From Corynebacterium sp. (GTDB lineage: Bacteria > Actinomycetota > Actinomycetes > Mycobacteriales > Mycobacteriaceae): a stretch of DNA of 46,082 bases. The DNA is taken from positions 1-46,082 of the forward strand of contig NZ_JAUNUG010000023.1 of NCBI RefSeq assembly GCF_030538285.1, written 5' to 3'. The notes beneath the pieces were generated by a model, which ran no database searches, had not been told where the DNA came from, and saw only the letters and a program-made list of their open reading frames with translations. Made by a program: the position numbers and the translations under genes. This document shows positions 12,658 to 40,492 of this stretch, piece after piece (position 1 is the stretch's first letter; each line of letters opens with the position of its first letter).

Positions 12658-12767
12658 TAGCCCACCCGACGCAGTTGCCAGAGTCTTGACTACGCCAGAC
12701 ACCGCGAGTCTCCGCACCGTGAAGACCCGCTTCGGGAAGTTCGCCCCAGCTCTCTTACGTTCATGCC

Positions 12768-13103
12768 ATGACGAACACCGCAAACGCCCTCTCCGTTACC
12801 TGCCCGACCTGCCCCGCCGCCGTTGACGCCAAGTGCACGACGAACACCGGCAAGCCCTCGCCGTTCCACACCGTCCGCACCCGGCTCGCCGTTGACGAGG
12901 CCGCACGCATCGCCGCAGCCGTGGCCGAGTCGCTGGCGAAGAAGCCGCCCGACGGCGCGAAGAAGCCCCGCACGAAGAAGGCCTGCTCCGCCACCTGGGC
13001 CTCATGCGAGACTCCCGGGCTGCGCGTTCAAACGCTCACAGCTCCCCTACGAACGACGGCAGACACGAGGCAGCATCACCGTCGGAACTCTGCCATCCGG
13101 TGA
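12768..13103 (+). CDS. small zinc-finger protein of mobile-element type
   Basis: From ATG 12768 the first 45 residues contain CPTCPAAVDAKCTTNTGKPSPFHTVR, a C-x2-C...C...H arrangement seen in short zinc-binding domains of actinobacterial phages and integrative elements. A helical, lysine-rich stretch follows (AARIAAAVAESLAKKPPDGAKKPRTKK). The last 40 residues have little character. The 3' end overlaps the convergent gene at 13076 by 28 bp. A DNA- or RNA-binding accessory role is plausible but not shown. Confidence 0.6.
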   Translation: MTNTANALSVTCPTCPAAVDAKCTTNTGKPSPFHTVRTRLAVDEAARIAAAVAESLAKKPPDGAKKPRTKKACSATWASCETPGLRVQTLTAPLRTTADTRQHHRRNSAIR

Positions 13104-17365: not shown

Positions 17366-17608
17366 GACACCCCTCCTGACTCGAGATCCCGCTCCTTGCG
17401 TCCCCACAAGCACCCGAATCCCGCCAGAAGGCCACCCCAATCGCCGACATCCACAACTCCCCTATCCCCCGCCTCCTTCCTGACAAGCCGCCCGTCGCTA
17501 ACCCAGACCACGTCCCCCCACCGATCTCGAAGCCCTCATGTCGTACACACCTCTTGCACTCCGGAAACTCGGGTGGCCGCCCAGCCCCATTCGGCTGCTT
17601 GTAGGGGT
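17366..17608. other. divergent intergenic region, candidate oriT and promoters
   Basis: 243 bp lie between the divergent accessory gene and the relaxase gene. In many mobilisable elements the transfer origin is directly upstream of the relaxase gene. I see no convincing long inverted repeat, only short imperfect ones near 17550-17575, so the proposal rests on position. Two divergent promoters must lie here, but none is clear. Confidence 0.3.
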
Positions 17609-20600
17609 GTGACGGCGTCCATCACCAAGATCACCGCCGGGTCGGGGTACGAGTACCTGACCCGTCAGGTCGCGCGCATGGACGCCACCAGCGAAGCCAG
17701 CCCCGGCTTGGCCGCCTACTACTCCGAGAAGGGCGAATCCCCCGGACGCTGGGTCGGCACCGGACTCACCGGGATGGGTGGACTCGCAGCGGGTGATGAG
17801 GTGACCGCCGCCCAGATGTGGAACCTGTTCGCTGTCGGCTACCACCCACTGGCCGAACAGCTCCAGCACGCGGCCGCCGTCCGCCCAAACGCCACCCCCG
17901 GCGAGGTCGAACGCGCAGGCCGGCTCGGTACCCCATTTCAGGTGCAAGCTGGCGATGTCAGCTCGTTCCGGATCGAGGTGGCCCGCCGACTGGAGGCCTA
18001 CAACACCGCCCACGGACTCCCCCGCAGCGCGGCGATCACGGCCAGCATCCGGGCCCGGATTCGTACCGAGGTGGCCGTTGAAATGTTCACCGAGCGGCAC
18101 GGGCGTGCCCCTCAGGACACGCGCGAGTTGGCCGGCGAGGTGGCCCGGCTGTCGCGTCCAGCCTCTGCGGCGGTGGCTGGGTTCGACGTCACGTTCAGCC
18201 CGGTGAAGTCGGTGTCGACGTTGTGGGCGCTGGCCGACCGGCCGCTGGCCACCACAATCGAGCAGGCACATCAGAAGGCGGTGGCCGACGCCCTGCGGGC
18301 AATCGAGGAGACTGCCCTGTACACCCGCGTGGGTGCTGGCGGCGTGCGTCAGGTGGATGTGCGCGGCCTGATCGGGGCGGCGTTCACCCACCGTGACTCG
18401 CGTGCCGGGGACCCCGATTTGCACACGCACGTGGCGATCGCGAACAAGGTGCAGGAAGCCGAAACGGGCCGCTGGTACTCCATCGACGGGCGGGTGTTGT
18501 TGAAGGCGGTCGTAACCATTTCGGAGACCTACAACACCGCGTTGGAGCGGCACCTGAGCGAGCGGCTGGGTGTCCGGTTCGCTGATCGTCCCGGCCCGGA
18601 TGGGAAGCGTCCGGTGCGGGAGATCGTCGGGGTGGAGCCTGCGTTGAACGAGCGTTGGTCCTCTCGGCGGCAGCGGATCGAGGCCCGACGTGCAGTGCTG
18701 GCACGCGAGTTCCAAGCCCAGCATGGTCGTCCCCCGTCGCCAACGGAGGCGATCGGGTTGGCGCAGCAGGCCACCCTGGAGACCCGGGATGCGAAGCATT
18801 CGGCTCGTTCGGAGGCTCAGCAGCGGGCGACGTGGCGCGCTGAAGCGCTCGAGGTGTTGGGGTCGGCTGACGCGCTGGCCGCGATGGTGTCGGGTGCGGT
18901 GGGGCGTCCGGATGCGGTGACGTTCACCCCGGACCAGGAGTGGGTGGAGGCCACGGCCCGGCGGGTGGTGGGCATCGTGCAGGGGCACCGTTCGACGTGG
19001 CAGGGCTGGCACCTGCGGGCCGAAGCCCTGCGCCAGTTGCGGGCAGCGAACGTGGCCGGATCACTGGTCGAGACGATCGCGCACCAGGTCGTCGCGCATG
19101 CGCTGGCCACCCACTGCGTGTCCTTGGAGCGCCCGTTGGCCAGCCCGGATGGGAGCGTGGTGGAACCGTCCGAACCGGCCGCCCTGCGGCGTGCGGACGG
19201 GACGAGTCAGTACACGGTGGCGGGGTCGACGTTGTTCACCAGCAGCCCCGTGTTGGCCGCTGAGGAGTACCTCGTCGCGGCTGCCGGCCGCACCGGCGGG
19301 TGGGCGGTCACCGAGGCCCATGTGGGGGTCGCGTTGGCTGAATCGGCCGCCAACGGGGTCACCCTCAACGACGGGCAGGCGGCGCTCGTCACGGCGATGG
19401 CGACCAGCGGCGCACGCGTGCAGGCCGCGATCGCGCCGGCCGGATCGGGCAAGACGACCGCGATGCGCGCCCTCACCCAAGCCTGGACCGATGGGGGTGG
19501 CACCGTGATCGGTCTGGCCCCGTCTGCGGCGGCGGCCGAGCAGCTGCGCGACCAGACAGGCGCGCCCACCGACACGCTGGCCAAGTTGTGCTGGCACCTC
19601 GACCAAGGCACCGCCCACCCGAGCCTGCCCCGCATCGATGAGGGCACGCTCGTGCTGGTCGATGAGGCGGGCATGGCCGACACGCTCAGCCTGCACCAGG
19701 TGGTCCGCCACGTCCTCGACGCCGGGGGCAGCGTCAGGTTGATCGGCGACGACCAGCAGCTCGCCGCGATCGGCGCCGGCGGCGTCCTGCGTGACATCGA
19801 AGCCACCCACGGAGTGCTCCGCCTGGACGAACTGGTCCGATTCCGCGATCCCGCCGAAGGCGCGGCCAGCCTCGCCCTCCGAGCTGGACGACCCGAAGCA
19901 CTCGGCTTCTACCTCGACCAGCAGCGCGTTCACGTCGGTGACCTGGCCACCATGACCACCGACGTGTTCACCGCCTGGAGCACCGACCGTGCCGCCGGGT
20001 TGGACTCGATCATGCTCGCCCCCACCCGCGAGCTGGTCGCCGAACTCAACACGCGCGCCCGCCACCAGCGCCTCAACGGCGCACCCGCTGGCCGGGAAGT
20101 GTGGCTGTCCGACGGGTTGCCCGCCAGCGCCGGGGACACCATCCTCACCCGCCGCAACAACCGTCGCCTGCGGACCAGCGCCACCGATTTCGTGAAGAAC
20201 GGTGACCGCTGGCAGGTGGTCGACGCCCGCGCCGATGGCAGCCTGCACGTCGCCCACACGCGCACCGGACGCCGCGTCACCCTGCCCGCCGACTACGTCG
20301 CCGAGCACGTCGAACTCGGCTACGCCTCCACCATCCACACCGCCCAGGGCATCTCGGTCGACACCACCCACGGCGTCCTGTCCGGCGGCGAATCCCGCCA
20401 GTTGCTGTACACGATGATGACCCGCGGCCGCGACGCCAACCACGCCTACCTCGCCGTGGTGAGTGATGGCAACGAGCACACCACCTTCGCCCCGGAGACG
20501 GTCAGCCCGCTCACCCCCACCGACATGCTGGAGAAGATCCTCGGCCGCGACGACACCCCCGTCTCGGCGACCACGCAGACCCGGATCGCCGCCGACCCGG

Positions 20601-23083
20601 CCACCCAGCTGGCCGATGCCACCCGCCGGTACGCCGACGCGATCGGCGTGGCGTCCGCGCAGATCGCCGACCCCGACCTGATCCGGCACCTCACCCGACG
20701 GATCGACGCCGTGGTGCCCGGCATCACCGATTGCGACGCGTGGCCCACCCTGGTCAACCGGCTCCTCCTCATCGCCGCCGACGGCCGCGACCCCTTCGCC
20801 GAGACCCAGCACGCCCTCACCAGCGCCCCGCTCGGCGACGCCCGCGACGAAGCCTCCGTCCTGGTCGCCCGCCTTGAGACGCGCACCCGTGACCGGGGGC
20901 CGCTGCCGTGGTTGCCCGGCATCCCGACCCGGCTGGCCGACCACCCCACCTGGGGCCCCTACCTCACCGCGCGCGGCACCCTCGTCGGCGCACTGGCAGA
21001 CCACGTCCGCACAGCCACGCTGGCTGATGCGAGCCAGCCCGCGTGGGTGCGGTCCTCCAGCTGGACGCCGCCTCTCTCGCTGGTGGCCGACGTCGAGGTG
21101 TTCCGAGCTGCGACCGGTGTCGAGGCCGCTGACCTGCGGCCTACTGGGGACCCGCAGTTCCAGCGCACCATTCGCCGCTACCAGGCCGGTCTGGACCGCC
21201 GGCTGCGTGAGGACCACTCCCCCGCGTTGGCCGAGTGGGGACCGCTGCTGGCCGAGCTGTCCGCGACCATGACCGCCGACCCGTACCTGCCCCAGCTCGC
21301 CCGCCAGCTCGGCTACCTGTCCAGCCACGGCACCCAGGTGCGGCCCCTGCTGGAAGCCGCCAGCGTGCAGCCGCTGCCCGATGACCACCCCGCGGCCGCG
21401 TTGTGGTGGCGGATCGCCGGCCAGCTCGACCACGCCCAGCGCACCGGGGAACGCCGCACCCCCGACCAGTGGCTGCCCGAACTCACCGAACGCCTCGGCG
21501 TGCACGCGGAGGCGATGCAGGCCAGCCCGTGGTGGGTCACGCTCGTGGACGCCGTGGACCGTGGCCTGCAGCGCGGCTGGCCCCTCGACGCCCTCATCAG
21601 CCCCCACCGTGCTGGCGACATCCAGACCCTCATCGAGGACGTCACCCGGCTCGCCGACAGCCACGACACCCCCGCCGATGCCCTGGAGACCGAGGCGCCG
21701 CCCACCGACCTGTGGGACGACTGGAACCCCGCCAACCCGATCCACGTCGCCACCCCCGACGAGCAGCCCGCCACCCACGAACTGGACGCCACCGAGCCGG
21801 CCGACGAGTCCGAACCCCCGCTGGAATGGGAATGCGACGACCTCACCGTGGAAGCGCTCATCCGCACCGGCCTACGCCTCGACACCGACCCCGCCGACAC
21901 GATCCGGCTGCTCGACCAGGCCGACCAGTGGAAGGAAAGCCCCGCCAGCCAGGACCGGCTCGAACTGATCAACGAGCTCACCACCCGCTTCTACCAGCAC
22001 AAGTTCACGCGCAGTTGGGCACGCGCCTACCTCACCGACCGGTTCGGCGTCGACGTCCACGAACACCCCGACCTGCGGCCCGGCCTCGCGCCGGCCGGAT
22101 GGACCAACCTGGTCGACCACCTGCGTGGCCACGGCATCACCGACCAGGAGATGCTCACCGCAGGCGTCGCCACCCAAGCACGAACCGGCCATCTGATTGA
22201 CCGGTTCCGTGACCGGGTCATGCTGCCCATCCTCGACCCCGACCACCGCGTGCTCGGATTCGTCGGACGCCGCAACCCCACCAGCAGCGACGAGCGGGCA
22301 CCCAAGTACCTCAACACCCCCGACACGCCCCTGTTCCACAAGGGCAACCAACTCTACGGCGCCACCCACCTCCTCACCACCGACCCGACCCGCATCCCCG
22401 TGCTCGCCGAAGGTCCCATGGACGCCCACGCGATCACGCTGGCCAGCCACGGCCGCTACGTCGGCCTGGCCCCGCTCGGCACCAGCCTGACCAGCCTGCA
22501 GGCCACCCAACTCGCCAGCCTTGACCGGACTCCGATCATCGCCACCGACGCCGACCTCGCCGGACGCCTCGCCGCCGAACGCGACTACTGGATGCTCACC
22601 CCCCACGGGCTCGACCCCCGCTACGCCATCCTGAACCCCGGCAGTGATCCCGCCGAACTCCTTGCCACCGGCCAAGCTGCTGCCCTCAACCACGCGCTCA
22701 CCGAAGCCGGGTCGTTGGCCGATGCGCTCATCAACGAGCGGATCAGCAACCTGCCCACCCCCGAAGCCGCCCTCGGTGCCGTGGCCGTGCTCGCCGCCCA
22801 ACCCCCCGAACGATGGGAGGACGGCGTGCAAGCACTCGGGGACCGGCTCGGCCTGCCCGCCGGGTTCCTGCGCGGTGCCCTCAAGGACCACGTGCGTGCG
22901 TGGAACACCAACGCACGCCGCGCAGCCGACAGCCAACTCGCCCGCACCCACGACGTAAAGTCTCGCCTCAGCCAGTCCACGGAGTCCTACGAGGCCCCAC
23001 CAAGTCGGCCAAACACCCCCAGCAGAGCTACGAAGCGCCCCGCCCCCATCGCCGGCCGGGGAGGCCCTCGCTCAGGCCGCTGA
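17609..23083 (+). CDS. traA: MobF relaxase - RecD-like helicase - primase fusion (TraA type)
   Basis: About 1,824 residues if started at the GTG at about 17609, where the protein becomes family-like (VTASITKITAGSGYEYLTRQVA); the open frame upstream is low-complexity. The N-terminal TrwC-like relaxase has Tyr14 and Tyr16 as candidate nicking residues and the metal-binding His triad H261, H272, H274 (FTH...LHTH). The helicase has Walker A APAGSGKT at 609-616 and Walker B VDEAG near 684-688. From about 1400 a DnaG-like part follows: RDRVMLPILD, GFVGRRNP, PKYLNTPDTPLFHKGNQLYG, then the Toprim EGPMD at 1601 and DAD at 1647-1649. One chain could thus nick oriT, unwind DNA and prime the copied strand. 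It ends 17 bp from the convergent HNH gene. No ribosome binding site supports the start. Confidence 0.93.
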   Translation: MTASITKITAGSGYEYLTRQVARMDATSEASPGLAAYYSEKGESPGRWVGTGLTGMGGLAAGDEVTAAQMWNLFAVGYHPLAEQLQHAAAVRPNATPGEVERAGRLGTPFQVQAGDVSSFRIEVARRLEAYNTAHGLPRSAAITASIRARIRTEVAVEMFTERHGRAPQDTRELAGEVARLSRPASAAVAGFDVTFSPVKSVSTLWALADRPLATTIEQAHQKAVADALRAIEETALYTRVGAGGVRQVDVRGLIGAAFTHRDSRAGDPDLHTHVAIANKVQEAETGRWYSIDGRVLLKAVVTISETYNTALERHLSERLGVRFADRPGPDGKRPVREIVGVEPALNERWSSRRQRIEARRAVLAREFQAQHGRPPSPTEAIGLAQQATLETRDAKHSARSEAQQRATWRAEALEVLGSADALAAMVSGAVGRPDAVTFTPDQEWVEATARRVVGIVQGHRSTWQGWHLRAEALRQLRAANVAGSLVETIAHQVVAHALATHCVSLERPLASPDGSVVEPSEPAALRRADGTSQYTVAGSTLFTSSPVLAAEEYLVAAAGRTGGWAVTEAHVGVALAESAANGVTLNDGQAALVTAMATSGARVQAAIAPAGSGKTTAMRALTQAWTDGGGTVIGLAPSAAAAEQLRDQTGAPTDTLAKLCWHLDQGTAHPSLPRIDEGTLVLVDEAGMADTLSLHQVVRHVLDAGGSVRLIGDDQQLAAIGAGGVLRDIEATHGVLRLDELVRFRDPAEGAASLALRAGRPEALGFYLDQQRVHVGDLATMTTDVFTAWSTDRAAGLDSIMLAPTRELVAELNTRARHQRLNGAPAGREVWLSDGLPASAGDTILTRRNNRRLRTSATDFVKNGDRWQVVDARADGSLHVAHTRTGRRVTLPADYVAEHVELGYASTIHTAQGISVDTTHGVLSGGESRQLLYTMMTRGRDANHAYLAVVSDGNEHTTFAPETVSPLTPTDMLEKILGRDDTPVSATTQTRIAADPATQLADATRRYADAIGVASAQIADPDLIRHLTRRIDAVVPGITDCDAWPTLVNRLLLIAADGRDPFAETQHALTSAPLGDARDEASVLVARLETRTRDRGPLPWLPGIPTRLADHPTWGPYLTARGTLVGALADHVRTATLADASQPAWVRSSSWTPPLSLVADVEVFRAATGVEAADLRPTGDPQFQRTIRRYQAGLDRRLREDHSPALAEWGPLLAELSATMTADPYLPQLARQLGYLSSHGTQVRPLLEAASVQPLPDDHPAAALWWRIAGQLDHAQRTGERRTPDQWLPELTERLGVHAEAMQASPWWVTLVDAVDRGLQRGWPLDALISPHRAGDIQTLIEDVTRLADSHDTPADALETEAPPTDLWDDWNPANPIHVATPDEQPATHELDATEPADESEPPLEWECDDLTVEALIRTGLRLDTDPADTIRLLDQADQWKESPASQDRLELINELTTRFYQHKFTRSWARAYLTDRFGVDVHEHPDLRPGLAPAGWTNLVDHLRGHGITDQEMLTAGVATQARTGHLIDRFRDRVMLPILDPDHRVLGFVGRRNPTSSDERAPKYLNTPDTPLFHKGNQLYGATHLLTTDPTRIPVLAEGPMDAHAITLASHGRYVGLAPLGTSLTSLQATQLASLDRTPIIATDADLAGRLAAERDYWMLTPHGLDPRYAILNPGSDPAELLATGQAAALNHALTEAGSLADALINERISNLPTPEAALGAVAVLAAQPPERWEDGVQALGDRLGLPAGFLRGALKDHVRAWNTNARRAADSQLARTHDVKSRLSQSTESYEAPPSRPNTPSRATKRPAPIAGRGGPRSGR

Positions 23084-23100: not shown

Positions 23101-23868
23101 CTAACGGTGGGTGATGAGTCGTGTGGCCAACTGGCACGGAGTCAGCCACGGCTGCGCTCGGTGGATCATCCGGTGACAGTTAGAGCACAACAGAGCCAAG
23201 TCTTCCAATCGGGTCTCCACTGGGCCCGAAGCATGAAGCGGCAAGGTGTGGTGGACCTCCACGTAGCCATCTCCGAGTACGCCGTACCTGGCTTTGAAGT
23301 CGAACCCGCACACCTCACACCCCAAGGTGCCGCCCGCAGCGAGGACCGCGGCCAGTTTGGCCTTGCGCAGCTTCGGGCTCCTCTCGCGGCGCAGATGGAG
23401 CACAGCCTGCAGACGTCCTTCACGGGCAGTGAGGATCTCCATATCAGTGTCAGGGGGCGGAAGATGCGGCCCAACTGCTATCTGCCCGCGGATAACTCGG
23501 GCAAGGGCTGCCATGCGCTCGGGCTCAGCTATGAACTCCAGCAGGACCTCAGCGTCGAACGGACCTCCCTTGGTCGGAGCCCCGTCGTAGTCGGGGTGCT
23601 GGGTGGCGATGTCAAAGGTCTTGCGTTGAACGCTGTTGACGCTGCGGAAGCTGCTCTCCCGGTCCTCCACCGGGTGGATCGTCGCCGCTTGGAGCAACTG
23701 GGACAACTCCAGAACCAACGGATTAGTCGCCCGTAGTCCCTGCCAGTTGTTGCGCGCCACCAGGTCAGCGGCGAGCACCACTTCTTCGTAGGACCACCCG
23801 ATTCGTGCCACAACTCTGATCCTGTCGCTCGGTGGAACAAAGCTTTCGAGGCGCGCCGAGCCAGCCAA
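23101..23868 (-). CDS. HNH endonuclease (McrA-like), last gene of the defence operon
   Basis: Up to 255 residues from a TTG at 23868; the true start is uncertain, as the first well-formed segment is WSYEEVVLAADLVARNNW at about 25. The C-terminal HNH domain is clear: CEVCGFDF, then YVEVHHTLPLH, then LALLCSNCHRMIH, with four Cys that would bind a structural zinc. This pattern is common in restriction nucleases attacking modified or foreign DNA. It follows the DUF4420-type gene by 41 bp on the same strand, so it is probably the fifth gene of the dcm-DUF262-Z1-DUF4420 operon, though it could be an independent type IV-like nuclease. Confidence 0.88.
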   Translation of the reverse strand: MAGSARLESFVPPSDRIRVVARIGWSYEEVVLAADLVARNNWQGLRATNPLVLELSQLLQAATIHPVEDRESSFRSVNSVQRKTFDIATQHPDYDGAPTKGGPFDAEVLLEFIAEPERMAALARVIRGQIAVGPHLPPPDTDMEILTAREGRLQAVLHLRRERSPKLRKAKLAAVLAAGGTLGCEVCGFDFKARYGVLGDGYVEVHHTLPLHASGPVETRLEDLALLCSNCHRMIHRAQPWLTPCQLATRLITHR

Positions 23869-23909
23869 GAAGGCGCCAAGTCAGCCTCGTTCGAGACGCC
23901 AATCTCCGC

Positions 23910-24968
23910 TCAGCACCCGAGGATAGACTGCGCCACTTGGTTGGCGCCGTTCACGGGGTTCAGTGCACTCACGACCGCAGGTAGGTTGACCCGGAAGTTG
24001 ACCGACTGCAGGTCGACGTGGTGGTGGGAACTCACATCGTCGCTGCGCAGCACCTCGATGCCGGGGTCGCCCATGTCGTAGCCGCGGCAGAACGTCACGG
24101 TGAACAGCGTGGTGAAGGGCGCGTCGTCGGCCATGTTCGCATGGTCGTAGCCGAAGCCCGACTCGGAACCGTAGATCGCCACCCGGGAGAGGAAGCCGGC
24201 CACCTGACCATCGTTCCCGGTGGCCTGTAGGCGGTCGACCAGACGCTGCACCAGGTCGGGCAGCGAGACGGAGTTGCTGCCCTGAACTGCCGCGGTCTGG
24301 AGGCCGATACTGACCAAGACCAGCTTGTCCTCGACGTTCCCGTCGTCATCGGGGCCGGCGGGCTCGATCTGGTGGACGCCTTGGACCAAGTGGGCCGACG
24401 TCGTGCGCGAGGTGGTCTTCACCTCGACTCCGATGCCGCCCCAGGAGAAGTCGCGCGCCGACCTGCGCCAGCCGTCCCAGGAGTCGACGATCGACGCCAC
24501 GACCGCGTCGCTGGCCCGCCGGCAGAGTGCATCCAGCAGGAGCATCTCGCCGACCAGCCCCAGCATGGCCGCCTCGGACATCTGCAAGCGCTCGATGGAC
24601 AGCTCGATGATGGGTTCGGTGACGGCGAAGGCCCGCTCGATGTCCTTGTCGGCACCGTTGCGCAGGAGCTCGGTGCACAGGAAGGCACCGACCTGGTCGA
24701 AGTGGCCGAGCGCCGGCAGCAGCAGCCGGTTGGCGTCCAGCGGGAGACCGCCGTCGCGGTGCCAGGAGTGGAACATCATGGAGTCGATCACCGACGGCGA
24801 CCTAGGCTTGAGCTCAGGGCCGGCCAGGAACAGCTCCAGGCGACCGGTCTGGTCGCGCGAGACCCCAAGGGTTGCCGCTGCGGTGAGCCACTCGATGGTG
24901 CGGGCCTTGGCCTGCTCGGCGTTGGGCATCGCGCTGATCCGTTCGAGGATCTCCTCGTAGGTGTTCAT
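23910..24968 (-). CDS. PD-(D/E)XK motif protein (DUF4420 type), predicted restriction nuclease
   Basis: 352 residues. The nuclease core reads GLVGEMLLLDAL (Glu141), then WDGWRRSARDFSWGGIGVEVKTT with Asp173 and the Glu182-x-Lys184 pair, the PD-(D/E)XK signature. The N-terminal RSPSVIDSM segment and the length agree with DUF4420 proteins, which are recurrent partners of Z1-domain proteins and Dcm methylases in predicted phage-defence operons. It starts 15 bp behind the Z1 gene. I infer that it is the DNA-cutting subunit, guided or loaded by the Z1 ATPase and restrained by cytosine methylation. Confidence 0.85.
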   Translation of the reverse strand: MNTYEEILERISAMPNAEQAKARTIEWLTAAATLGVSRDQTGRLELFLAGPELKPRSPSVIDSMMFHSWHRDGGLPLDANRLLLPALGHFDQVGAFLCTELLRNGADKDIERAFAVTEPIIELSIERLQMSEAAMLGLVGEMLLLDALCRRASDAVVASIVDSWDGWRRSARDFSWGGIGVEVKTTSRTTSAHLVQGVHQIEPAGPDDDGNVEDKLVLVSIGLQTAAVQGSNSVSLPDLVQRLVDRLQATGNDGQVAGFLSRVAIYGSESGFGYDHANMADDAPFTTLFTVTFCRGYDMGDPGIEVLRSDDVSSHHHVDLQSVNFRVNLPAVVSALNPVNGANQVAQSILGC

Positions 24969-24983
24969 AGGGTCGCCTTTCGG

Positions 24984-27794
24984 TCAGGTGATCGGCAGTG
25001 CGGCTGCCTTGGTGGCGGCGAACTGCTCGGGCCCGCCGGCTGGGATGCACACGCCCACCGCCAGCGCCGGGTGCGGCTGGTCTGGAAGCTGGTTGACGTA
25101 GAAGAGGATTTGGCCGTCGGAGCCGGCCGGGCGCCAGGACGAGTCGCTGGAGGACCGTGGCAGCGGCTCGCCGCGGTGGTAGTAGTCGAAGAAGGTGTCG
25201 CCGCGGTATTCGGTTGGGTCGGCGTCGGGGTCGTTGGACCCCCACTTGGTCATGATCTTCCCGCCCTGGACGTCCTTGGTCGTGGTCCGCACCGGGGTCG
25301 GCAGCCCGGACAGGGGGCCGCTGGTCACCGGCACACCGCGTCCATAGCGGATCCCCACCCAGAACCGCGGCTGCTGGCGCGTCTTGAGCCCCAGGTCGGC
25401 CATCGACCACAGGGCGGCCGGTGCCCCGGTGATGAACAGCCCACGGACCGGCCGGTTCAGGCAGGCGCTCCAGAACCGCAGGTAGGCGGGGATGGAGTAG
25501 GGATCGTCGCGTCGGACCGGATCGGGCTCCCCCGTCGTCGGGGAGGGGGCCCGGTACAGGCCGGGGTCGACCAGCGGCTGTATGGCGGCCAGGTCGGCCT
25601 CCACCCGTGCCCAGTGCATCCCGACCTGGTGGTCGGTGCCGGGCTGGTAGGCGTCGAACGCGAGCCGGTCGAGCAGGTCGGCGGCCTCCCCCAGGGTGAG
25701 GGGCTCGTCGAGGCTGCGCCCGAGGAGCCGGTTGCCCAGGATCAACTCAGTCGAGGCGCTCGCCTCGAACAGGTCGCCCACCAGCTCGACGTTGGGGTCG
25801 GGCTCCTGCCCGCTGTTGATCACCGGGACGAAGGGGGTGGCGCCCAGGCTCAGCGGCTTGTTCCCGAGGTTGGCGATCTTCCCCGTGGCCAAGAAGCCCA
25901 TCCCCTGCAGCACGGCAGGCTCGGGTGCGCCGCCCATCATCTTCTCGGTGATCGCGATGCGCACCGCCTCGTCGATGTCATGGTACGCGCGGAACAGGTC
26001 CAGCTGCGGGTCGGGGGCGAACACCCGGCAGAGCTCGACGTAGTCGCCCCGGTAGCCGAACCAGCGCTGCATCTGCATCTGCGTGTCGGCCAGCGGGTTG
26101 TTGGACGCCCGCTGGAACAGCGCGGTGGTCATGCCCTCCAGGGTGAGCCCTCGAGCCATGACGTTCCCGGAGACGAAGATGGTGGACAGGTCGCGGGCAG
26201 GGCGCCACTGGCCGGTGTCCGGGTCCAGGGTGGGCCGGTACATCGGCCGGTCGTCGGCCGACGGGTCGCTGTTCACGACCGAGACCCGGGTGCCGGGGAT
26301 GACCTCGGTGGCCAGCAGGGCCTTCACCTGGTCCCACGTCGGGATGGTTCGGGGTGCCAGCAGGTTGAACTCGGACTCGATGGCCTGCGCCGACGACAGG
26401 TATCGGTCGAGCCAGACCGCCCACGTGTCCGGCTCCGTGTCGAGGCGGTCAACCAGCGCCTCGGGCAGGCGCGCCTCGCCGGTCTCCAGCAGTTCGCGAG
26501 CCGCCTCGCGGTCAGGGATGCCGGCCCAGGTCAGCACGTCCTCGGCGCTGCGGAAGTGGGCGTCGATGTTGGCCGAGGGGTGGATGAGCATCGAGTGGGG
26601 CGCCGGGGTCGCGGCTGAGGCGGCCTCCCGCGTCGGGTACAGGGCTTGGAGAGCGGATCGGGGGCCGGTCCTGCCGGAGCGGTGCAGGCGGATGGCGCCG
26701 GCGACCAGGTACGCGCGCACGGCGTCGGCGAGGTCCTCGTCTGCGTTCCCGGTGGTGGGGACGCACAGGTCGGCGGCGTGGCCGCGGCGGTAGAACACCT
26801 CGCCGCCGGTGTAGTACGAGCCGATCCCGGCGGGCTCGGGGTAGGTGGACGAGCGGGGCGCCTCGAGGTCGGTGACGTCGGTCGGGTCGACGGGGTGGCC
26901 GATGTCGAGGGGCGTGCGCAGCGAGATCAGGAAGTCTCGGGGAGCCAGCGGGTTGTGGTCCTCCTGCAGGAGGTTGGCCTGGGGGGTGGCGGTGTAGGCG
27001 ATGTAGGTGGCGAACAGGTTGTCCGGGGCGGGGTCGGCCGGGTCCCACAGGTTCGCGATGGCACGGGGCACCTGCTTCAGGTTCCCGAACACCGGGTCGC
27101 GTCCGGCCTCGACGACGGCGTCCAGGATCGATCCGTCGTCGGCCTCGTCGTCCAGGACGAGCATGTGCGCCGGCCTCTCCAAGGCCCTCACGGCACCGAA
27201 CACGTCGGTACGCAGGCTCCGGGCCAGGGCGTGGAGGTGGTCGGTGTGCTTCATCGCCACGATGATGATCGGGTTGCCGCGGGACAGGGTGCGCCGTACC
27301 CCGGCCGGCTCCATCCGGTAGGTGTCCACCAGTCGGGCCGAGTCCTCCGAGAGCACTACCCCAGGCGGCGGCACCAAGAGCCTCCTCCTGAATTTGCTGG
27401 CGTTCTCCTCGCCTGCGTCCAGCTGCGCGGCCAGTCGCTCGTAGGTCTGGCGCCACAGGGACAGCCGGGTGCCGGCGAGCACGACGACGATGTCGACGCC
27501 ACGGTCCAGCCCCATGGCCGAGACCCCGAGCATGGAGGCGGTCTTGCCGGACTGCACCGAGCCCATGACCAGGCCCGTCCTCACGCGGCTGGACGGCCAA
27601 GAGGCGGGGTCTGGTGCCCCGTCGCCCAAGATGCCGCGCTCGACGACGTAGTGGCAGTCGGCCTCGAGCGCCGCCCGGGCGGTGGGCGTCAGGTTCGTCA
27701 ACTGCGCGGCGTAGCGGGACCACCACCCCTCGGCAGGGGCCGAGGGGGCGGGGGCGTCGAAGTAGACATGCTCGGATCGCGGGTGGTCCGCCAT
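24984..27794 (-). CDS. Z1-domain ATPase of a restriction-like defence system
   Basis: 936 residues from ATG 27794. A superfamily-2-like motor is visible: Walker A GSVQSGKT at 78-85, motif Ia-like VVVLAGTRLSLWRQ, and motif II LDDEADD (DEAD at 216-219). The central Z1 signature includes TIFVSGNVMARGLTLEGMTTALFQR, then QMQRWFGYRGDYVELCRVF. The C-terminal third is mixed and ends in a beta-rich region. In known gene neighbourhoods Z1 proteins travel with Dcm, a GHKL/MORC ATPase and a DUF4420 nuclease; here they travel with DUF262. The likely role is ATP-driven translocation that brings the nuclease to unmethylated DNA. Confidence 0.9.
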   Translation of the reverse strand: MADHPRSEHVYFDAPAPSAPAEGWWSRYAAQLTNLTPTARAALEADCHYVVERGILGDGAPDPASWPSSRVRTGLVMGSVQSGKTASMLGVSAMGLDRGVDIVVVLAGTRLSLWRQTYERLAAQLDAGEENASKFRRRLLVPPPGVVLSEDSARLVDTYRMEPAGVRRTLSRGNPIIIVAMKHTDHLHALARSLRTDVFGAVRALERPAHMLVLDDEADDGSILDAVVEAGRDPVFGNLKQVPRAIANLWDPADPAPDNLFATYIAYTATPQANLLQEDHNPLAPRDFLISLRTPLDIGHPVDPTDVTDLEAPRSSTYPEPAGIGSYYTGGEVFYRRGHAADLCVPTTGNADEDLADAVRAYLVAGAIRLHRSGRTGPRSALQALYPTREAASAATPAPHSMLIHPSANIDAHFRSAEDVLTWAGIPDREAARELLETGEARLPEALVDRLDTEPDTWAVWLDRYLSSAQAIESEFNLLAPRTIPTWDQVKALLATEVIPGTRVSVVNSDPSADDRPMYRPTLDPDTGQWRPARDLSTIFVSGNVMARGLTLEGMTTALFQRASNNPLADTQMQMQRWFGYRGDYVELCRVFAPDPQLDLFRAYHDIDEAVRIAITEKMMGGAPEPAVLQGMGFLATGKIANLGNKPLSLGATPFVPVINSGQEPDPNVELVGDLFEASASTELILGNRLLGRSLDEPLTLGEAADLLDRLAFDAYQPGTDHQVGMHWARVEADLAAIQPLVDPGLYRAPSPTTGEPDPVRRDDPYSIPAYLRFWSACLNRPVRGLFITGAPAALWSMADLGLKTRQQPRFWVGIRYGRGVPVTSGPLSGLPTPVRTTTKDVQGGKIMTKWGSNDPDADPTEYRGDTFFDYYHRGEPLPRSSSDSSWRPAGSDGQILFYVNQLPDQPHPALAVGVCIPAGGPEQFAATKAAALPIT

Positions 27795-27804
27795 GGCTCT
27801 GGGA

Positions 27805-29754
27805 CTAGTCGGCCTGCGCGGTCGGGAAGATCATGCCGCGCAGGGACTCGAAGCCTGAGGTGCCGAAGCGCTCGCGGACTGCGTCCGAGGCGACCTGGGG
27901 GTCGACCCCGAGCAGGTCCACGATGCCGGTGGCGATGCGGGCGATGTAGTCCCACTGGCTCTTGGTCTGCGCCTTCTCGATGCGCACCCAGTCGGTTGCG
28001 CTGGCCGCTCGGATCGCGTCGGCGTGCTCCTCGATGCGGTCCTCGATGTCATCGGGGGCCCCGGCGGCGGCGAAGGCGATGCCCAGCACCGACCCCACCA
28101 GCTGGAGCTCCTGCCACTTGATGCCCTTCTCACCGTCCTTGAAGGAGGGGGCCCACAGCTCGTGGTGGCCCGAGTGCAGCTCCACGACCTCGGCGATCCA
28201 CCCGAACAGGTCGGCCAGGACCGCCCTGCTGCGCAGCCGGTGGGTCGGGTACTTGTTGGCGTCGGCGACCTGGTCGAGCATGAGGTCGATGTGGCGCGCC
28301 GTGGAGGGCAGCGCCTTGCGCTCTCCGGTGACCGGGTCGGCGGTGTCGTGCAGCAGGACCGCGATGATCCAGGAGAGCACCTTGGTCCGCTTGTAGCGGG
28401 AGTCGCCGAAGCCGTAGGCCTTGAGGGTTGCGCCCAGTTCCTCCAGTCCCGGCACTCCCATCAGGACGCCGTCGGCGATGTCGGCCGCGGTGGTCCCCTC
28501 GGCAGCGTCGCCGGCCGCGTACAGGGTGGCGGGCATGAGGGTGACCTCGTGGTAGACCGCGTTGCGGAGCTCCTCGGCGTTCAGGTGGACGCCCTGCTTG
28601 TTGTAGAGCTTGAAGACCTCGTGGATCTGGCGCTGGCTCGCATCGAGGTACTCGATGACCGGGATCTGGTAGTCCGGCGCACCGGTGAAGAGTTCCTCGA
28701 CCTCGATCACCTGGCCGGAGACGGGGATCAGCTTGTCCTTGATCTCGGTGTAGTACTTGCCTTGCAGGGGTTCGAGGTACTTGCCGGTGAGACCCCCGTC
28801 CCCGTTGCCGCGCAGCTTGAACGGGAAGTAGTAGTCGTCCTCGGCCTTGGCAGTGAGGGTCTCCTTCTCCAGCTTCTTCCAGGCCAGCCGGAAGGCCGGG
28901 TAGTTGGTCTCGAAGAGCGTCTTGAGGTTCTTGCCGGGATGGCGCGCATCGGCCTCCCGGACCTTCGCCAGCGCTCGCGGGTGGGCGCCGACGAACCGCA
29001 GGATCGCCGTCAGGCGCTGCTTGCCGTCCACGACCTCGTGGGTGGTGGCCCCTGGGGTGCGCAGCAGGATGAGCGACGGCAGCGGGATACCGCGGAGGAT
29101 CGACTCGATGAGCGCCTGGCGGTCACCGGTCCGCCAGACGTCGCCGCGCTGATACGACGGGGCGAGGTTCAGCTTCTTCTTGGTCAGTTGGAGGATGTAC
29201 CACACGGCAGCCTTGGCCGAGACCGGCTTGAGCCGGTCAGGTTCGGAGAGTCCGTCCTCCTCGTCGGCCCAGGCGTCGGCCCAAACGGAGGTTGCATCGG
29301 CCAGGCTGGCGCCGTTCTCCTCCCGGTTCTCCAGGAATGCGTCCCTGAGCCGGACGGCCGTCTCCACCCGATGCTGGAGCTTCTCCACCGCCACGACGGT
29401 CAGGTGCCTGGTGCCGTCGTCGTCCTGGAGCGCGGAGTCGACGTCGAGGCCCAGTTCGGAGACCAGCGCCTCCAGGAAGGCGTCTCGGGTGCTGGTCGGC
29501 AGGTCGGAGTCGAAGGCCAGCCACCCCTGGACGTCGGAAAGGCGGTACATCCACGCGTCGGTCTCGAAGTCCACCTCGTCGGGGGTGAACATCGAAGGCG
29601 TGAGCGCGATGTTCGCGGGGGCCTCCGGCGACTCGGACAGGACTGCCATCCGGTCGGCGATGCCCTCCCAGAGCTGGACTCGCGGGTCCTCGTCGGCGTC
29701 GAGGAGGTCGTCCTCAAGCACGTCTTGGTCGATTGCGTCCTGCTCGATGGTCAT
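27805..29754 (-). CDS. DUF262-domain protein
   Basis: 649 residues from ATG 29754, overlapping the methyltransferase stop by 4 bp; the extra frame to 30498 is shadow. After an acidic N-terminal 170 residues comes the ParB/Srx-like DUF262 core: LNLAPSYQRGDVWRTGDRQALIESILRGIPLPSLIL, then VDGKQRLTAILRF (DGKQR at 243-247) and YNKQGVHLNAEELRNAVYH. These bind and split nucleotides in GmrS-type type IV enzymes. The GmrD-like HNH half (DUF1524) is not apparent. It occupies the place where related operons carry a GHKL/MORC ATPase, so it may be the nucleotide-driven sensor or switch. A separate HNH protein three genes on might supply the missing nuclease. Confidence 0.88.
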   Translation of the reverse strand: MTIEQDAIDQDVLEDDLLDADEDPRVQLWEGIADRMAVLSESPEAPANIALTPSMFTPDEVDFETDAWMYRLSDVQGWLAFDSDLPTSTRDAFLEALVSELGLDVDSALQDDDGTRHLTVVAVEKLQHRVETAVRLRDAFLENREENGASLADATSVWADAWADEEDGLSEPDRLKPVSAKAAVWYILQLTKKKLNLAPSYQRGDVWRTGDRQALIESILRGIPLPSLILLRTPGATTHEVVDGKQRLTAILRFVGAHPRALAKVREADARHPGKNLKTLFETNYPAFRLAWKKLEKETLTAKAEDDYYFPFKLRGNGDGGLTGKYLEPLQGKYYTEIKDKLIPVSGQVIEVEELFTGAPDYQIPVIEYLDASQRQIHEVFKLYNKQGVHLNAEELRNAVYHEVTLMPATLYAAGDAAEGTTAADIADGVLMGVPGLEELGATLKAYGFGDSRYKRTKVLSWIIAVLLHDTADPVTGERKALPSTARHIDLMLDQVADANKYPTHRLRSRAVLADLFGWIAEVVELHSGHHELWAPSFKDGEKGIKWQELQLVGSVLGIAFAAAGAPDDIEDRIEEHADAIRAASATDWVRIEKAQTKSQWDYIARIATGIVDLLGVDPQVASDAVRERFGTSGFESLRGMIFPTAQAD

Positions 29755-31154
29755 GCAACGGCTCCCACGGGTCGGTTGAGGGTGGTCGAGTGCGCGTTCG
29801 GCACCGAAGGTAGCAGCGTGTCCAGCAGGGACGCCGCGATCGCGCCCACGACCTTGGCGTTCACGGCGTTGCCCAGCGCCTTGTAGGCGTCGAGGTCGTG
29901 CGCCGGCAAGTCGATGTCGCCCAGGCTCTGCAGCTGCGCGCACTCCGAGGGGGTCATGTAGCGGCGCTCGCCGGCAAGACGGGCGCCGAGGATGGGCACC
30001 TGGGTCTGGGTGAAGGCGATGAGGCTGGGCGCAGTGGTGGGGCGCTTGATGCGTAGCCCCGAGGCCCTGACCTGCAGCACGAACCTGTCGATGTCGCGCT
30101 CCTCGCCCTGGGCGTTCCACTCCAGCTTCTGGAAGCTCGAGGGGAAGTCCCACGGCTGCCACTGGTTCATCCACGGAGTGATCCAGCTGGCGTTGTCGTG
30201 GAAGAACTCGCGGTTCTGGCGTATGAAGGTCTGCTTCCAACGGGGGAAGGACAGGTCCCCCTGGCGGCGCGAGTGGCTGGGGATCAGCTCCTGCTGCTGG
30301 GTGATCGTCAGCCCGTCGAGCTCGAAGCCGAAGCTCCCCTTCATGTGCAGGCCGTTGAACCCGCGGCTGCGCCGACGCTCCCAGATTCCCGGAGGCGTCT
30401 GGTGCTCGTAGGGGTAGGTTGCGCCGAACTCCATGGCCCAGATCGGGAAGGACGGCAGCTTGAGTTCCTTGGGGCTGCGCTTGAGGAAGTCGCCCCACAT
30501 GTCGATGGCGCGCAGCGTCAGTTCCGGGATGGTGCGACCGCCCGGGACGTGGTCACGGAGGACCGAGGTGATGTCGGTCTGCTCCTTGTGCTTGGCCGGC
30601 CACTCGAACCCGTCGAGGCCGTCGAGGGAGCCGACGAAGTAGGCGCGGTCACGAACCTGCGGGATGCCGAACTCGTGGGGCGAGAAGTGCGCCACGCGCA
30701 CGGTGTAGCCGAGCGCGCTGAGTTCGGTGAGGATCGTCTCCTTGGTGTTCCCGCCGTCATGGCGAAGGATGTTGGGGACGTTCTCGAGGATGAATCGCTG
30801 CGGCCGCTTCACCTTGAGGATCTGATGGACCTTGAAGAACAGGTTGCCCTGCGAGGTGTCCTTGAAGCCGAGTTGGTCGCCGGCCTTGGAGAACGGTTGA
30901 CAGGGAAAACCGGCGGTCAGGACCTCGTGGTCGGGGACCTCTCGAGCGATGTCGTCGTCGGTCTCGAGCTCGTTGAGGTCACTCCACGGCTCAATGCCGT
31001 AGTTGTCTTTGTACAGGGCGTTGAGCGTGGGCTCCCACTCGGCGGCGAACACGGCCTCCCCACCAAGGTCGCGCAGCGCGACGTGGAATCCGCCCAGACC
31101 GGAGAAGAGGTCCACGAACCGGAAGCTCTGCGTCGGCGGCGGCACGACCGTCAT
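29751..31154 (-). CDS. dcm: DNA (cytosine-5) methyltransferase
   Basis: 467 residues from ATG 31154. The motifs come in the usual order: FVDLFSGLGGFHVAL (motif I, SAM binding), FPCQPFSKAG with catalytic Cys85 (IV), ENV at 124-126 (VI), QVRDR at 166-170 (VIII) and a late ALGNAVNAKVVGAIA (X). The target-recognition region between about 200 and 380 is long and cannot be read for specificity. It is the first gene of the operon and would protect host DNA from the downstream Z1/PD-(D/E)XK partners by methylating the same site. The gap 31155-31321 upstream should hold its promoter. Confidence 0.96.
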   Translation of the reverse strand: MTVVPPPTQSFRFVDLFSGLGGFHVALRDLGGEAVFAAEWEPTLNALYKDNYGIEPWSDLNELETDDDIAREVPDHEVLTAGFPCQPFSKAGDQLGFKDTSQGNLFFKVHQILKVKRPQRFILENVPNILRHDGGNTKETILTELSALGYTVRVAHFSPHEFGIPQVRDRAYFVGSLDGLDGFEWPAKHKEQTDITSVLRDHVPGGRTIPELTLRAIDMWGDFLKRSPKELKLPSFPIWAMEFGATYPYEHQTPPGIWERRRSRGFNGLHMKGSFGFELDGLTITQQQELIPSHSRRQGDLSFPRWKQTFIRQNREFFHDNASWITPWMNQWQPWDFPSSFQKLEWNAQGEERDIDRFVLQVRASGLRIKRPTTAPSLIAFTQTQVPILGARLAGERRYMTPSECAQLQSLGDIDLPAHDLDAYKALGNAVNAKVVGAIAASLLDTLLPSVPNAHSTTLNRPVGAVA

Positions 31155-31795: not shown

Positions 31796-31902
31796 GGCGG
31801 ACATCCTCTCGGGTGCAGGTCTTGGTTGCACGTCGGCGCCCGGGGCCGCCGTTGGCGGCGCCGAATACGCTCGGCCAGGACAGGCGAGGTGAAGGAGTAC
31901 CG

Positions 31903-32769
31903 ATGGGCGACCGCGAGCAACTGATCGAGGCCCTGGACGAGTTGCTGGACGGTTGGGACGAGTTCGTCAGCACGAGCCACGTCACCTGGGTGGGAACCGG
32001 CGCGCGCAAGGGGCGGAACCGGAGCAAAGCGCAGACCGCGATCGTGGTGGGGCTGGTAACGCACGTTCACGAGACCGCCCGGCTGCTGAAGCCGGCGATG
32101 CCCGACGGGCTGACGATCGCCCACATGCCCCTGGTTCGCAGCATCTACGAGAGCACCCTCACGGCAGTCTGGGCCGACGAGGTGGCCGACGGTGCAGAGG
32201 CGATCATGAAGGAGGAGGGCCGCAATCGGCGCGCTCTGGAGCAGGCCTGGGAGGACATCGAGTCCTTCAAGAAGGGGGTTCCCATCCCCCACACGGAGTG
32301 GGCCGACGTGGAGACCCCGAGCGCGAACCAGGCCCGCAACTTCGAGCAGTTGGCGAAAGAGGTGGCCCTGGAGGGCGCCTACGCGTACTACCGCGTGCTC
32401 AGCGGCCTGAGTCACGTCTCCATCATGACAGTCGACGAGTACGTCGAGGAGACGCAGGCAGGCGACTCGGAGGCAGGGTTCCGTTTCATTGCCCGGCCCG
32501 ATCCGCTGGGCTCGGAGGCATGGTCATCCCTGGTGGCGTACTGCCTGATCTGGGCGGGGATGGTGGCGAACTACTACGACGAGACCCGCTCGCGGCGAAG
32601 CGCGCTGCGCTCCATCGCACGGAAGCTCGGCATCGAACCTGAACTGGCTGTCGACGGGGATGCCATCTTGAAGCGGCGGAAGGCGGCCAAGCAGAGGGCC
32701 AGCAAGAAGCAGAAGCACTGCGCCGGCTGCAACTGCGCGCCGTCGCCCTCCGATCAGGTCAGGCCGTAG
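31903..32769 (+). CDS. helical protein, possibly DUF5677-like, in the defence region
   Basis: 288 residues from ATG 31903, preceded by GAAGGAGTACC. It appears all-helical: an N-terminal helix, ARLLKPAMPDGLTIAHMPLVRSIYESTLTAVWADEVADG (the 'R.l.E......w' pattern of DUF5677 proteins), and a C-terminal hydrophobic helix AWSSLVAYCLIWAGMVANYYD before a basic tail ending in CAGCNCAPS. The family assignment is tentative. Its 3' end overlaps the convergent nuclease-like gene by 11 bp, which ties the two by position but not by transcription. Confidence 0.65.
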   Translation: MGDREQLIEALDELLDGWDEFVSTSHVTWVGTGARKGRNRSKAQTAIVVGLVTHVHETARLLKPAMPDGLTIAHMPLVRSIYESTLTAVWADEVADGAEAIMKEEGRNRRALEQAWEDIESFKKGVPIPHTEWADVETPSANQARNFEQLAKEVALEGAYAYYRVLSGLSHVSIMTVDEYVEETQAGDSEAGFRFIARPDPLGSEAWSSLVAYCLIWAGMVANYYDETRSRRSALRSIARKLGIEPELAVDGDAILKRRKAAKQRASKKQKHCAGCNCAPSPSDQVRP

Positions 32770-34216
32770 GCGGGAGCGGCTTGGGGTTCGGCGTCTCCTT
32801 GATGTTGGAGGCCGACTGCGGACGCGTTCCGTCGATGGCGATGAAGTGCAGGTCCTTGCCCGTTCGCGCAGCCGCGCCCTTGACGACTCCAGGGAGCGCC
32901 CTGAGCCTGTCGTAGGAACTCTTGGCCTTCCGGTACTGGACGGCGACGAACCAGCCCTCTGTGGTCTGGTCAGAGACGAGGTAGCTGGGCAACTGGTCGT
33001 TCAGGCCGTTCCAGAACTTCCCGTTGTGAACCTTCTTGACCTCGATGAGCAGGCGGAAGCTGTGCCCGCTGGTCACCTTGAAGTCGACCGGTCCGCGGCC
33101 CAACTCGACCTCGCGGTCGACCTCGACGCCGAACAGGCGCAGGTAGTGGCGCGCCATCGCCATGAAGAGCAGTTGGGCAGCCTCCTCGTTCTTCTCCGAG
33201 CCGTCGCTGTTCCACAGCAGGCGCCAGCCTCCCTGCTGCTCGATGAAGTGCTTGAACACCTCCAGGACCTGGCTGACCAGCGCCGACAGCTCGCCCTGGG
33301 TGTCGGGTGTACCGAGAGGTGGCAGGGGGTGCTGCTTGGCGAAGTCAGCGGCCTTGTCGTATCCCACGACACCCTTCGGGTCCTCCCCGAAGTCGTATCC
33401 CTTGAGGTCCTGGCGGCTGGTCTGGTTGCGAGCCCACTCGCGTACCCGCTCGGGGTTCCGGCGGGCCAGCTTGACGATCTCCCTCTTGGGGATGCGGTCG
33501 CCGATCTGCAGGTTGAGGGAGGTGCGCACCTCCTCGTTGACGTCGGACTGGAACCAGTCCTCGGCATTCAGCGTGGGGAGGTCCCGCAGCAGCCGCTTGG
33601 GAACGAGCAAGACCGGCCCGCCGGTCCGCGGGTTCGTCGGGAGGTCATGGCGCCCTTCCAGCCAGCGCGCGTTGGGCAGGTCGACTTCGGCGTTGCGCAG
33701 CCTGTGGCCGTGCACGGGGACCCCCAGCCGCTCCGCGACCCCCTGGGTGTAGGCCACGAAGTGGCGCTTCAGGATGTTGAGCGTGGCGTCGGAGATCCGG
33801 TCGGCCCCGAAGCCCTCGTTGAGGATGCCAATCTCCTCGATGTGGTCGGGCGCCTGAAGGCCTGCTGCGACCGCGACGGCGATGCCGTCGGCGATCGAGC
33901 GGGCATTGCCCAGCGAGCCGCCCGCCCCGCGCGTCGAGCCGACGCTGTAGCCCAGGCCGAACTCGTATGGCTCGGGGAAGGTGAGCAGCCGGTACGCCGC
34001 CTTGGCCCCGACGGACCGCGGCCCGACGGCCCGGGCGATGAGCCGGTAGCAGTGGGCGAAGTGCGCAACCAGCTCCGCATGCGCACTGGGCCAGGCCTCC
34101 CCCGCCCTGAGCAGCAGGAACGGGTCCACGAACAGCTTGGTGTCGACGGTGAGGTCGGGGTCGAACCAGTCGGCGTCGGTACCCGGCTGGATCGAGAAGG
34201 CGTCTGAGAACCGCAC
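32759..34216 (-). CDS. predicted PD-(D/E)XK nuclease-fold protein
   Basis: 485 residues from GTG 34216, preferred because GAGAGGGG lies 5 bp upstream; an open frame reaches 34351 but reads like filler. The N-terminal 300 residues (FSIQPGTDADWFDPDLTVDTKLFVDPFLLL...) are of unknown family. The C-terminal part has KNEEAAQLLFMAMARHYLRLFGVEV, then GRGPVDFKVTSGHSFRLLIEVKK, where Asp378 and Glu392-x-Lys394 fit a PD-(D/E)XK active site. A nuclease acting in phage defence is the best inference, given the adjoining restriction operon. The N-terminal part may sense the trigger. Confidence 0.75.
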   Translation of the reverse strand: MRFSDAFSIQPGTDADWFDPDLTVDTKLFVDPFLLLRAGEAWPSAHAELVAHFAHCYRLIARAVGPRSVGAKAAYRLLTFPEPYEFGLGYSVGSTRGAGGSLGNARSIADGIAVAVAAGLQAPDHIEEIGILNEGFGADRISDATLNILKRHFVAYTQGVAERLGVPVHGHRLRNAEVDLPNARWLEGRHDLPTNPRTGGPVLLVPKRLLRDLPTLNAEDWFQSDVNEEVRTSLNLQIGDRIPKREIVKLARRNPERVREWARNQTSRQDLKGYDFGEDPKGVVGYDKAADFAKQHPLPPLGTPDTQGELSALVSQVLEVFKHFIEQQGGWRLLWNSDGSEKNEEAAQLLFMAMARHYLRLFGVEVDREVELGRGPVDFKVTSGHSFRLLIEVKKVHNGKFWNGLNDQLPSYLVSDQTTEGWFVAVQYRKAKSSYDRLRALPGVVKGAAARTGKDLHFIAIDGTRPQSASNIKETPNPKPLPPTA

Positions 34217-34347
34217 GGAGCCCCTCTCGGTAGGCACTTCAACGGTATCGGCGGCCACCGACAATTCGGGAGGGGCCCCGCTGCCCACTTCACCAGCGCC
34301 CCCACTGCGGCTGGAACTCCGGCTTGGGCCTGCCGCACCGCATGCGC

Positions 34348-34808
34348 TCACCGTGCCCAGGTCGGGGCACGGGCTCGTCGGGGACCAAGAGCATCGAGAC
34401 CCGGGTCGAGCGCGTCCACGAAGCCCTCGGCCCCCTCGATGAAGTCAGCCGCATCAGCACCGTGCGCCTGGCGCTTGATGCCGAGGAACTCCCGCAGGCG
34501 GCCAGCAATGCGCCAAGCCCTGGGCTACCGGCGCAGCGACTCCTTCCAGCGCTCGTAGCGCTCCCGGCGCTGGCGCAGCACCTTTGGCCTCCTCGGCGCG
34601 GCGAGCCTCGAGCAGGGGCGGTGGCCAAGAGCTTCCACGCCTCCATCGGCGGGTCGGAGTCCGGTTCGGTGCATGACCACGCGAGCACGGCCCTCTGGTT
34701 GTCGTTGAGGTTCCAGTCCACGGCTCCATCGTGGGCCGAAGCGAAGGGGGTCGCGTCCGGCCCCGCCGGCGTCCCGCCCCTGATCGACCTGTTCACGAGG
34801 GAGGGCAT
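34348..34808 (-). pseudogene. decayed gene: two frameshifts and an internal stop
   Basis: Coding-like sequence on the minus strand jumps frame twice. It runs MPSLVNRSIRGG...VDWNLNDNQRAVLAWSCTEP...MEAWKLLATA in one frame, LLEARRAEEAK in the next, then KVLRQRRERYERWKESLRR, a TAG, and in the same frame RAWRIAGRLREFLGIKRQ...GADAADFIEGAEGFVDALDPGLDALG to a TGA at 34348. The jumps fall at a C run (GCCCC) and an A run (AAA), each an apparent one-base insertion. The product would be a small, charged helical protein; I do not know the family. The start is approximate. Confidence 0.6.
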
Positions 34809-37931: not shown

Positions 37932-39482
37932 TCAGACGCGCAGTTCCGTGATCGTGAGATCACGGAAGGTCGCGGACCCGTCGTGGGAGTACGCGCGGAT
38001 CCTGTCGTCCACCTCTAATGGGAAGACTCGATGAGAGTGAACCACTCGACCGTCCCCGACGAAGAACTCCACGCTGGTGCGGTCCACCAGGATGCGGAGG
38101 CTGACCGACCCGACGGACGGATCGAACTTCATCTGGGATTCGCCGGCCGTGGGATTGATCGTTGGGCGCCGGTTGACGTACGTGAACGGTCCGGGCATGT
38201 AGATGCCTGCTGCGACATGTCGCCCGCCGCCCTGAGCTCGGCACACTTCGAAACCGATGTTTCCTGGCGGCTTGGACGGGTCCCATTCAGCTTCGCAGGT
38301 CAGCTCGTAGGCCAGCGCACGCACGTCGAGGTCGTGAGTGCCCGCGAGGTGGACGTCCCCGAAGCGGTGCGTCTTGCGCGCGTACTGCGACAGGGCCGCG
38401 GTGGGGCTGGAAACGAGGTAGTACGTGCCGTCGGCTGAGAGGAGTCGGATGTCGCGAACGATCATGTCGTCGCCGTTGTACTGGTCAGTGGCCAGGGTGG
38501 GGGTGTTGTGTGGGTAATCCCAGAAGTTGGCCCAACCGATGATGTGCCGGATTGACGGGTCGATGCGGCCGTGGGCGTCGCGTTCTTCGTAAGTTGCGGC
38601 GCCGTAGAAGTCGAAGCCGCGGTCGAGCCACTCGGGTTCCGCATGGTTGGCGGCGAAATTTGAACCGTCGAATGTCCCCACCCAGTAGGCGTAGGTGGCA
38701 GGCAGCCCTCGGCCCTTGCCGTTGGCGCTGACCCCTAGTACCCAGTGCGAGGTGCCGTCATCTGCAGTCATCTCGAACAGGTCGGGACACTCCAGCAAAC
38801 CTAGGTCGTCCCTGACGAAACCCCCCGCGTACTGCCAGCTCTTCAGATCGACGGAGGTGTAGAAGCCGATCTTGTGTCCCTCCGCGAGCGCCATCGCCCA
38901 GCGGGAGCGCTGCTCATCCCAGATGACTTTCGGGTCGCGGAAGTCACGCACACCCGGGTTGGCAAGGGCGGGCGTGAGGCTGCCGGGTTTGAAGGTGGCA
39001 CCACCGTCGGTGGAGACCCAGAGGTACTGCGCCTGAACTCCGCGGGGCGCTTGGGTGACCAGCGCGATGACGGCACCAGCTCCATAGCCGGCTGTGTTCC
39101 GATCGTCGATGACCAGGGACCCTGACCAAACATCCTCGTTCGCGTTGGTGTGCTTGGGGATCGCGATCCCGCGATCACGGAACGACACGTGGTCTGTGGT
39201 CGTGGCTCGACGCCATGCAGTTCCGCCGCCGCCGGCGAGGTAGTCCGCGTTGTACAGGTAGTAGTAGTGGTACTCCCCGTCGATCCACACCGGACGCTGG
39301 GGATCATTCTTCCAGTTGTCAGGGACGCTGAAGTGGTAGTGGGGCCGCTGGCGGCTGCGTCCCCGGGCGGGTGCTGCAGCGGGTGCGGCCAGAGCGTCTG
39401 GCGCGCCCAACAGGGACACAGCGCCGACCGCGGTTGCCAAGCCTGCAGTACCGATGAGGCTGCGCCGGGTTAGTTCGTTCAT
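37932..39482 (-). CDS. Tat-exported GH32 glycoside hydrolase (fructanase/invertase type)
   Basis: 516 residues from ATG 39482, 4 bp overlapping the fructokinase stop; the long frame beyond is shadow. The N-terminus MNELTRRSLIGTAGLATAVGAVSLLGAPDALA is a twin-arginine signal. The five-bladed propeller carries the three acid motifs: nucleophile Asp in NWKNDPQRP (usually WMNDPNG), the stabiliser in DFRDPKVIWD, and the general acid in LLECPDLFEM. A C-terminal beta sandwich ends SLRILVDRTSVEFFVGDGRVVHSHRVFP, as in the family. It would split fructans or fructo-oligosaccharides outside the cell for the transporter encoded upstream. Substrate (inulin, levan, sucrose) cannot be read by eye. Confidence 0.9.
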   Translation of the reverse strand: MNELTRRSLIGTAGLATAVGAVSLLGAPDALAAPAAAPARGRSRQRPHYHFSVPDNWKNDPQRPVWIDGEYHYYYLYNADYLAGGGGTAWRRATTTDHVSFRDRGIAIPKHTNANEDVWSGSLVIDDRNTAGYGAGAVIALVTQAPRGVQAQYLWVSTDGGATFKPGSLTPALANPGVRDFRDPKVIWDEQRSRWAMALAEGHKIGFYTSVDLKSWQYAGGFVRDDLGLLECPDLFEMTADDGTSHWVLGVSANGKGRGLPATYAYWVGTFDGSNFAANHAEPEWLDRGFDFYGAATYEERDAHGRIDPSIRHIIGWANFWDYPHNTPTLATDQYNGDDMIVRDIRLLSADGTYYLVSSPTAALSQYARKTHRFGDVHLAGTHDLDVRALAYELTCEAEWDPSKPPGNIGFEVCRAQGGGRHVAAGIYMPGPFTYVNRRPTINPTAGESQMKFDPSVGSVSLRILVDRTSVEFFVGDGRVVHSHRVFPLEVDDRIRAYSHDGSATFRDLTITELRV

Positions 39483-40492
39483 GAGTGATTTCCTTCCTGG
39501 GGGATCGGGAAACGGGGGTGCGTTCGGGTGGACGGAGTTGGGAAGCTGTTGATCTTGTCGAAGGTTTCGAGCTCGGCCAGCGTGGGGGGATTGGCTCCTG
39601 CCCTGCTGACGGTGATCGCTGCCGCACAGGCCGCCCTGTGGAGCAGGCGTTCGATGTGGACCATGTCGAGGCTGGAGGGGTGATGGCCCTGAGATGCGAT
39701 CTGGGCCAGGAGCGATGCCATGAAGGAATCCCCAGCCCCGACCGTGTCGACCACTTGGGTGTGCATGGCGGGAGTCCGCACGGTGCCCGCTGGGGTGAGC
39801 GCTAGTGCACCCTGCCCACCCAACGTGACGACGACCAGGGACGGACCGAGACGTAGCCATGAGGCAGCGGCCTCCTCGAGGTCAGCATCGGGGTACAGCC
39901 AACGCAGATCCTCCTCGGAGACCTTCACCAGGGTGCTGAGGGCAACGAACGTTTCGGCGGAGCGCCGGCCATGGTGACGGTCGGGGTTGATGCTCGGCCG
40001 GCAGTTGGGATCGAACGTCACCAGGGCACCCCGGTCGCGTGCAGCAGCCACTGCCTCGAGTACTTGGCCGGCGCCCGGCTCATGGACGGTGGCGATGGAT
40101 CCGGTGTGCAGGAGGCGCGCCCCGACCAGGGATTTCTGGAGGGCGGTGCCCAAGTCGGGCATGTCCCAGTGCAGCTGGATGTCATAGGTGGCCGACCCGT
40201 CAGCACCAAGGGTCGCGGTGGCGACGCTCGTGGGGTTGTCGTCTGGGGGCATGGGGGCGATGACCCCGTTTGAGCGGAGATGGCGGGCCACCATGTCTCC
40301 GTACTCGTCGAGGCCGGTGCGTCCTAGGTAGACGGCTTCGCATCCCAATCTGGCTGCGCCCACCGCCACGTTGAGCGGGCTCCCTCCGACGTGCGGTCGG
40401 CCGTTCACGACGTCGATCAGGCCTTCTCCGACGACGACCACGCGTGGGCGCAGTGGCCGTGTCTGGTCGGTGGGGCCATGCTGGTTGCTCAT
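39479..40492 (-). CDS. PfkB-family carbohydrate kinase, probable fructokinase
   Basis: 337 residues from ATG 40492, overlapping the upstream GH32 stop by 4 bp; the longer frame is shadow. It begins VVVVGEGLIDVVNGRPHVGGSPLNVAVGAARLG, the glycine-rich sugar-binding opening of PfkB kinases, and ends with the catalytic signature VVDTVGAGDSFMASLLA, where the Asp is the base. The length is normal for the family. Placed between two GH32 genes, it most likely phosphorylates fructose released inside the cell. Confidence 0.92.
   Translation of the reverse strand: MSNQHGPTDQTRPLRPRVVVVGEGLIDVVNGRPHVGGSPLNVAVGAARLGCEAVYLGRTGLDEYGDMVARHLRSNGVIAPMPPDDNPTSVATATLGADGSATYDIQLHWDMPDLGTALQKSLVGARLLHTGSIATVHEPGAGQVLEAVAAARDRGALVTFDPNCRPSINPDRHHGRRSAETFVALSTLVKVSEEDLRWLYPDADLEEAAASWLRLGPSLVVVTLGGQGALALTPAGTVRTPAMHTQVVDTVGAGDSFMASLLAQIASQGHHPSSLDMVHIERLLHRAACAAAITVSRAGANPPTLAELETFDKINSFPTPSTRTHPRFPIPQEGNHS

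Follow-up and report, generated by a model that had tools for sequence, protein, structure and literature searches.

The window analyzed here, a 46,082-nucleotide stretch of Corynebacterium sp. DNA (contig NZ_JAUNUG010000023.1), carries five minus-strand genes in succession, and their coordinates (23101..31154) confirm the row of genes described in an initial annotation (Table 1). Four of them, the genes for the DNA methylase, DUF262 protein, DNA motor, and nuclease, probably constitute a restriction system, predicted from sequence, that is so far without a name. The initial annotation had put the locus forward as a candidate undescribed system, and its interpretation is supported in part: the libraries that we used (Pfam, PADLOC, and NCBIfam) supply names for single pieces of the four-gene set only. 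The set occurs in bacteria of five phyla; 78 loci were examined as relatives, 72 of them with full context.

Table 1. The five consecutive genes, with window coordinates.
Feature	Position	Strand	Remarks
Dcm-type 5-methylcytosine (m5C) DNA methyltransferase, 467 amino acids (aa)	29751..31154	(-)	PF00145, 2.3e-57; modification arm
DUF262 (GmrS, ParB/Srx fold) protein, 649 aa	27805..29754	(-)	
DNA motor (Z1 ATPase in the initial annotation)	24984..27794	(-)	PF10593, 7.7e-29
DUF4420 PD-(D/E)XK nuclease, MzaD kind, 352 aa	23910..24968	(-)	
HNH nuclease, 255 aa	23101..23868	(-)	TTG start; 41 bp behind DUF4420

The PCQ, ENV, and QxRxR positions of Dcm are retained in 96–100% of 75 aligned rows, and its best solved relative by sequence is M.HhaI (2.9e-41). 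In the DNA motor, the Walker A, DDEADD, TATPQ, and DTQMQMQRWFGYR motifs are almost invariant (76–77 rows); the motor also carries DTQMQMQRWFG, which is 99–100% retained (77 rows) and agrees by eye with DThhQXuRhFG at nine of 11 positions. The latter motif belongs to the third type of MORC/paraMORC operon, presented by Iyer, Abhiman and Aravind in 2008 (PMC2292703). As far as the available portion of that account goes, the features in common with our set are a cytosine methylase, a superfamily II (SFII) helicase with the DThhQXuRhFG motif, and a restriction-endonuclease-fold protein with E-D-ExK, with frequent Vsr. All three proteins are present in the set; no Vsr gene was found in the whole assembly (listed contamination, 6.73%). 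The GHKL ATPase is the departure: the replacements for MORC in that portion (paraMORC1–5) are all GHKL proteins, with no DUF262 among them, whereas in our set a DUF262 protein stands instead.

The same position distinguishes the set from the MZA anti-phage system (MzaB–MzaE of NCBIfam, NF041932–NF041935). The four-gene set resembles this known phage-defense system, which has an unrelated ATPase in the DUF262 slot; in MZA-like sets, that slot belongs to MzaB, a GHKL ATPase. The replacement, as originally proposed, is borne out by the lack of a GHKL relative in the window and by the presence of one within 6 kb in just two of the 72 relatives, one of these (L034) being a weak 42-bit match. The DUF262 protein itself probably uses nucleotides. 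Further, the set is headed by Dcm, unlike MZA, and it lacks the AIPR protein MzaE. The window also misses both MZA equivalog cut-offs (105.1 of 1500 bits for MzaC, 28.8 of 420 bits for MzaD), although these are strict: an MZA-like locus of Thalassospira (L105) falls just below those for MzaB, MzaC, and MzaD. Because the motor and nuclease families pair with either a GHKL ATPase or DUF262, they offer a natural swap experiment on that slot's task.

Does the set cut invading DNA at specific sites, or does it instead kill or arrest the infected cell as an abortive or regulatory system? The AIPR (abortive-infection) protein is frequent in related GHKL sets: tblastn searches using references drawn from other loci detected it in seven of the 11 plasmid loci (in L004, it is also present in the locus's own annotation), and the literature consulted demonstrates DNA cleavage for none of these sets. 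However, AIPR was found neither in the window nor in any of the 72 relatives, and the nuclease motif is invariant; we thus consider this alternative unlikely.

Two other systems merit comparison. In the parts of the reports available, the CglI and NgoAVII nuclease combines PLD and B3 (PMC4267653, PMC5737866), whereas our set has PD-(D/E)XK and a DUF262 protein; no PLD-B3 endonuclease domain was found among the matches of seven scanned window proteins. GmrSD, as covered in the accessible part of its report (PMC4619093), shares with the set a DUF262 domain that bears motifs of the QR and DGQQR types, for which a ParB/Srx fold was predicted, and it cuts modified DNA. The DUF262 protein could therefore recognize modified DNA similarly, with the Dcm self mark restraining or tuning it and foreign-modified or wrongly marked DNA as the target. 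The sole solved relative of the DUF262 profile, 7p9k, is likewise a DUF262 protein (it matches weakly, with an E-value of 0.054 across 44 positions), and a few sets have no detectable Dcm. Against this, Dcm lies nearby in 70 of the 72 full-context loci, as a self-protecting methylase predicts, and the partner half of GmrS (DUF1524/HNH) was not found: no DUF1524 is joined to or paired with DUF262 in the window, and the nearby HNH protein matches PF01844. A methylation reader is accordingly a minority possibility, and the four-gene set is a setting for DUF262 without its usual HNH half.

The HNH nuclease is probably a passenger outside the conserved set. It had been regarded as the fifth operon member, but its relatives occur in none of the 78 loci, and this part of the proposal is not supported. 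Among eight scanned genes directly behind DUF4420 in relatives, four match dissimilar families (ApeA-like; HipA-like, below the cut-off; AAA/methylase; and NOV_C) and four gave no match. A five-gene system, in which HNH would serve either as an additional nuclease within the complex or as an alternative effector, is hence quite improbable, its shared strand and close spacing with DUF4420 notwithstanding. Also in its favor, the MZA-like locus L100 of Neorhizobium petrolearium encodes an HNH-domain relative (64 bits over 88 residues; 12727–12990, minus strand) some 0.9 kb behind AIPR and on the opposite strand from it, L095 has another relative at roughly 0.8 kb from a DUF262 gene that is unrelated, and two sets (L003 and L042) have HNH genes of other families nearby.

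The operon probably sits on an integrative conjugative element, because a tRNA-Arg gene (anticodon cct, 7–82) adjoins a tyrosine integrase gene (110–1264, minus strand), with a TrwC relaxase gene further on (17396–23083, plus strand); no second attachment site was found within the window. On the other side of the operon, a 530-aa protein (32759–34351, minus strand) matches the PADLOC candidate PDC-M36A (7e-26) and, weakly, EruA; it is possibly a second defense gene. Beside it is a DUF5677 gene (31813–32769, plus strand). Outside the defense region, two GH32 glycosidase genes lie close together with a transporter gene alongside (37932–41997, minus strand).
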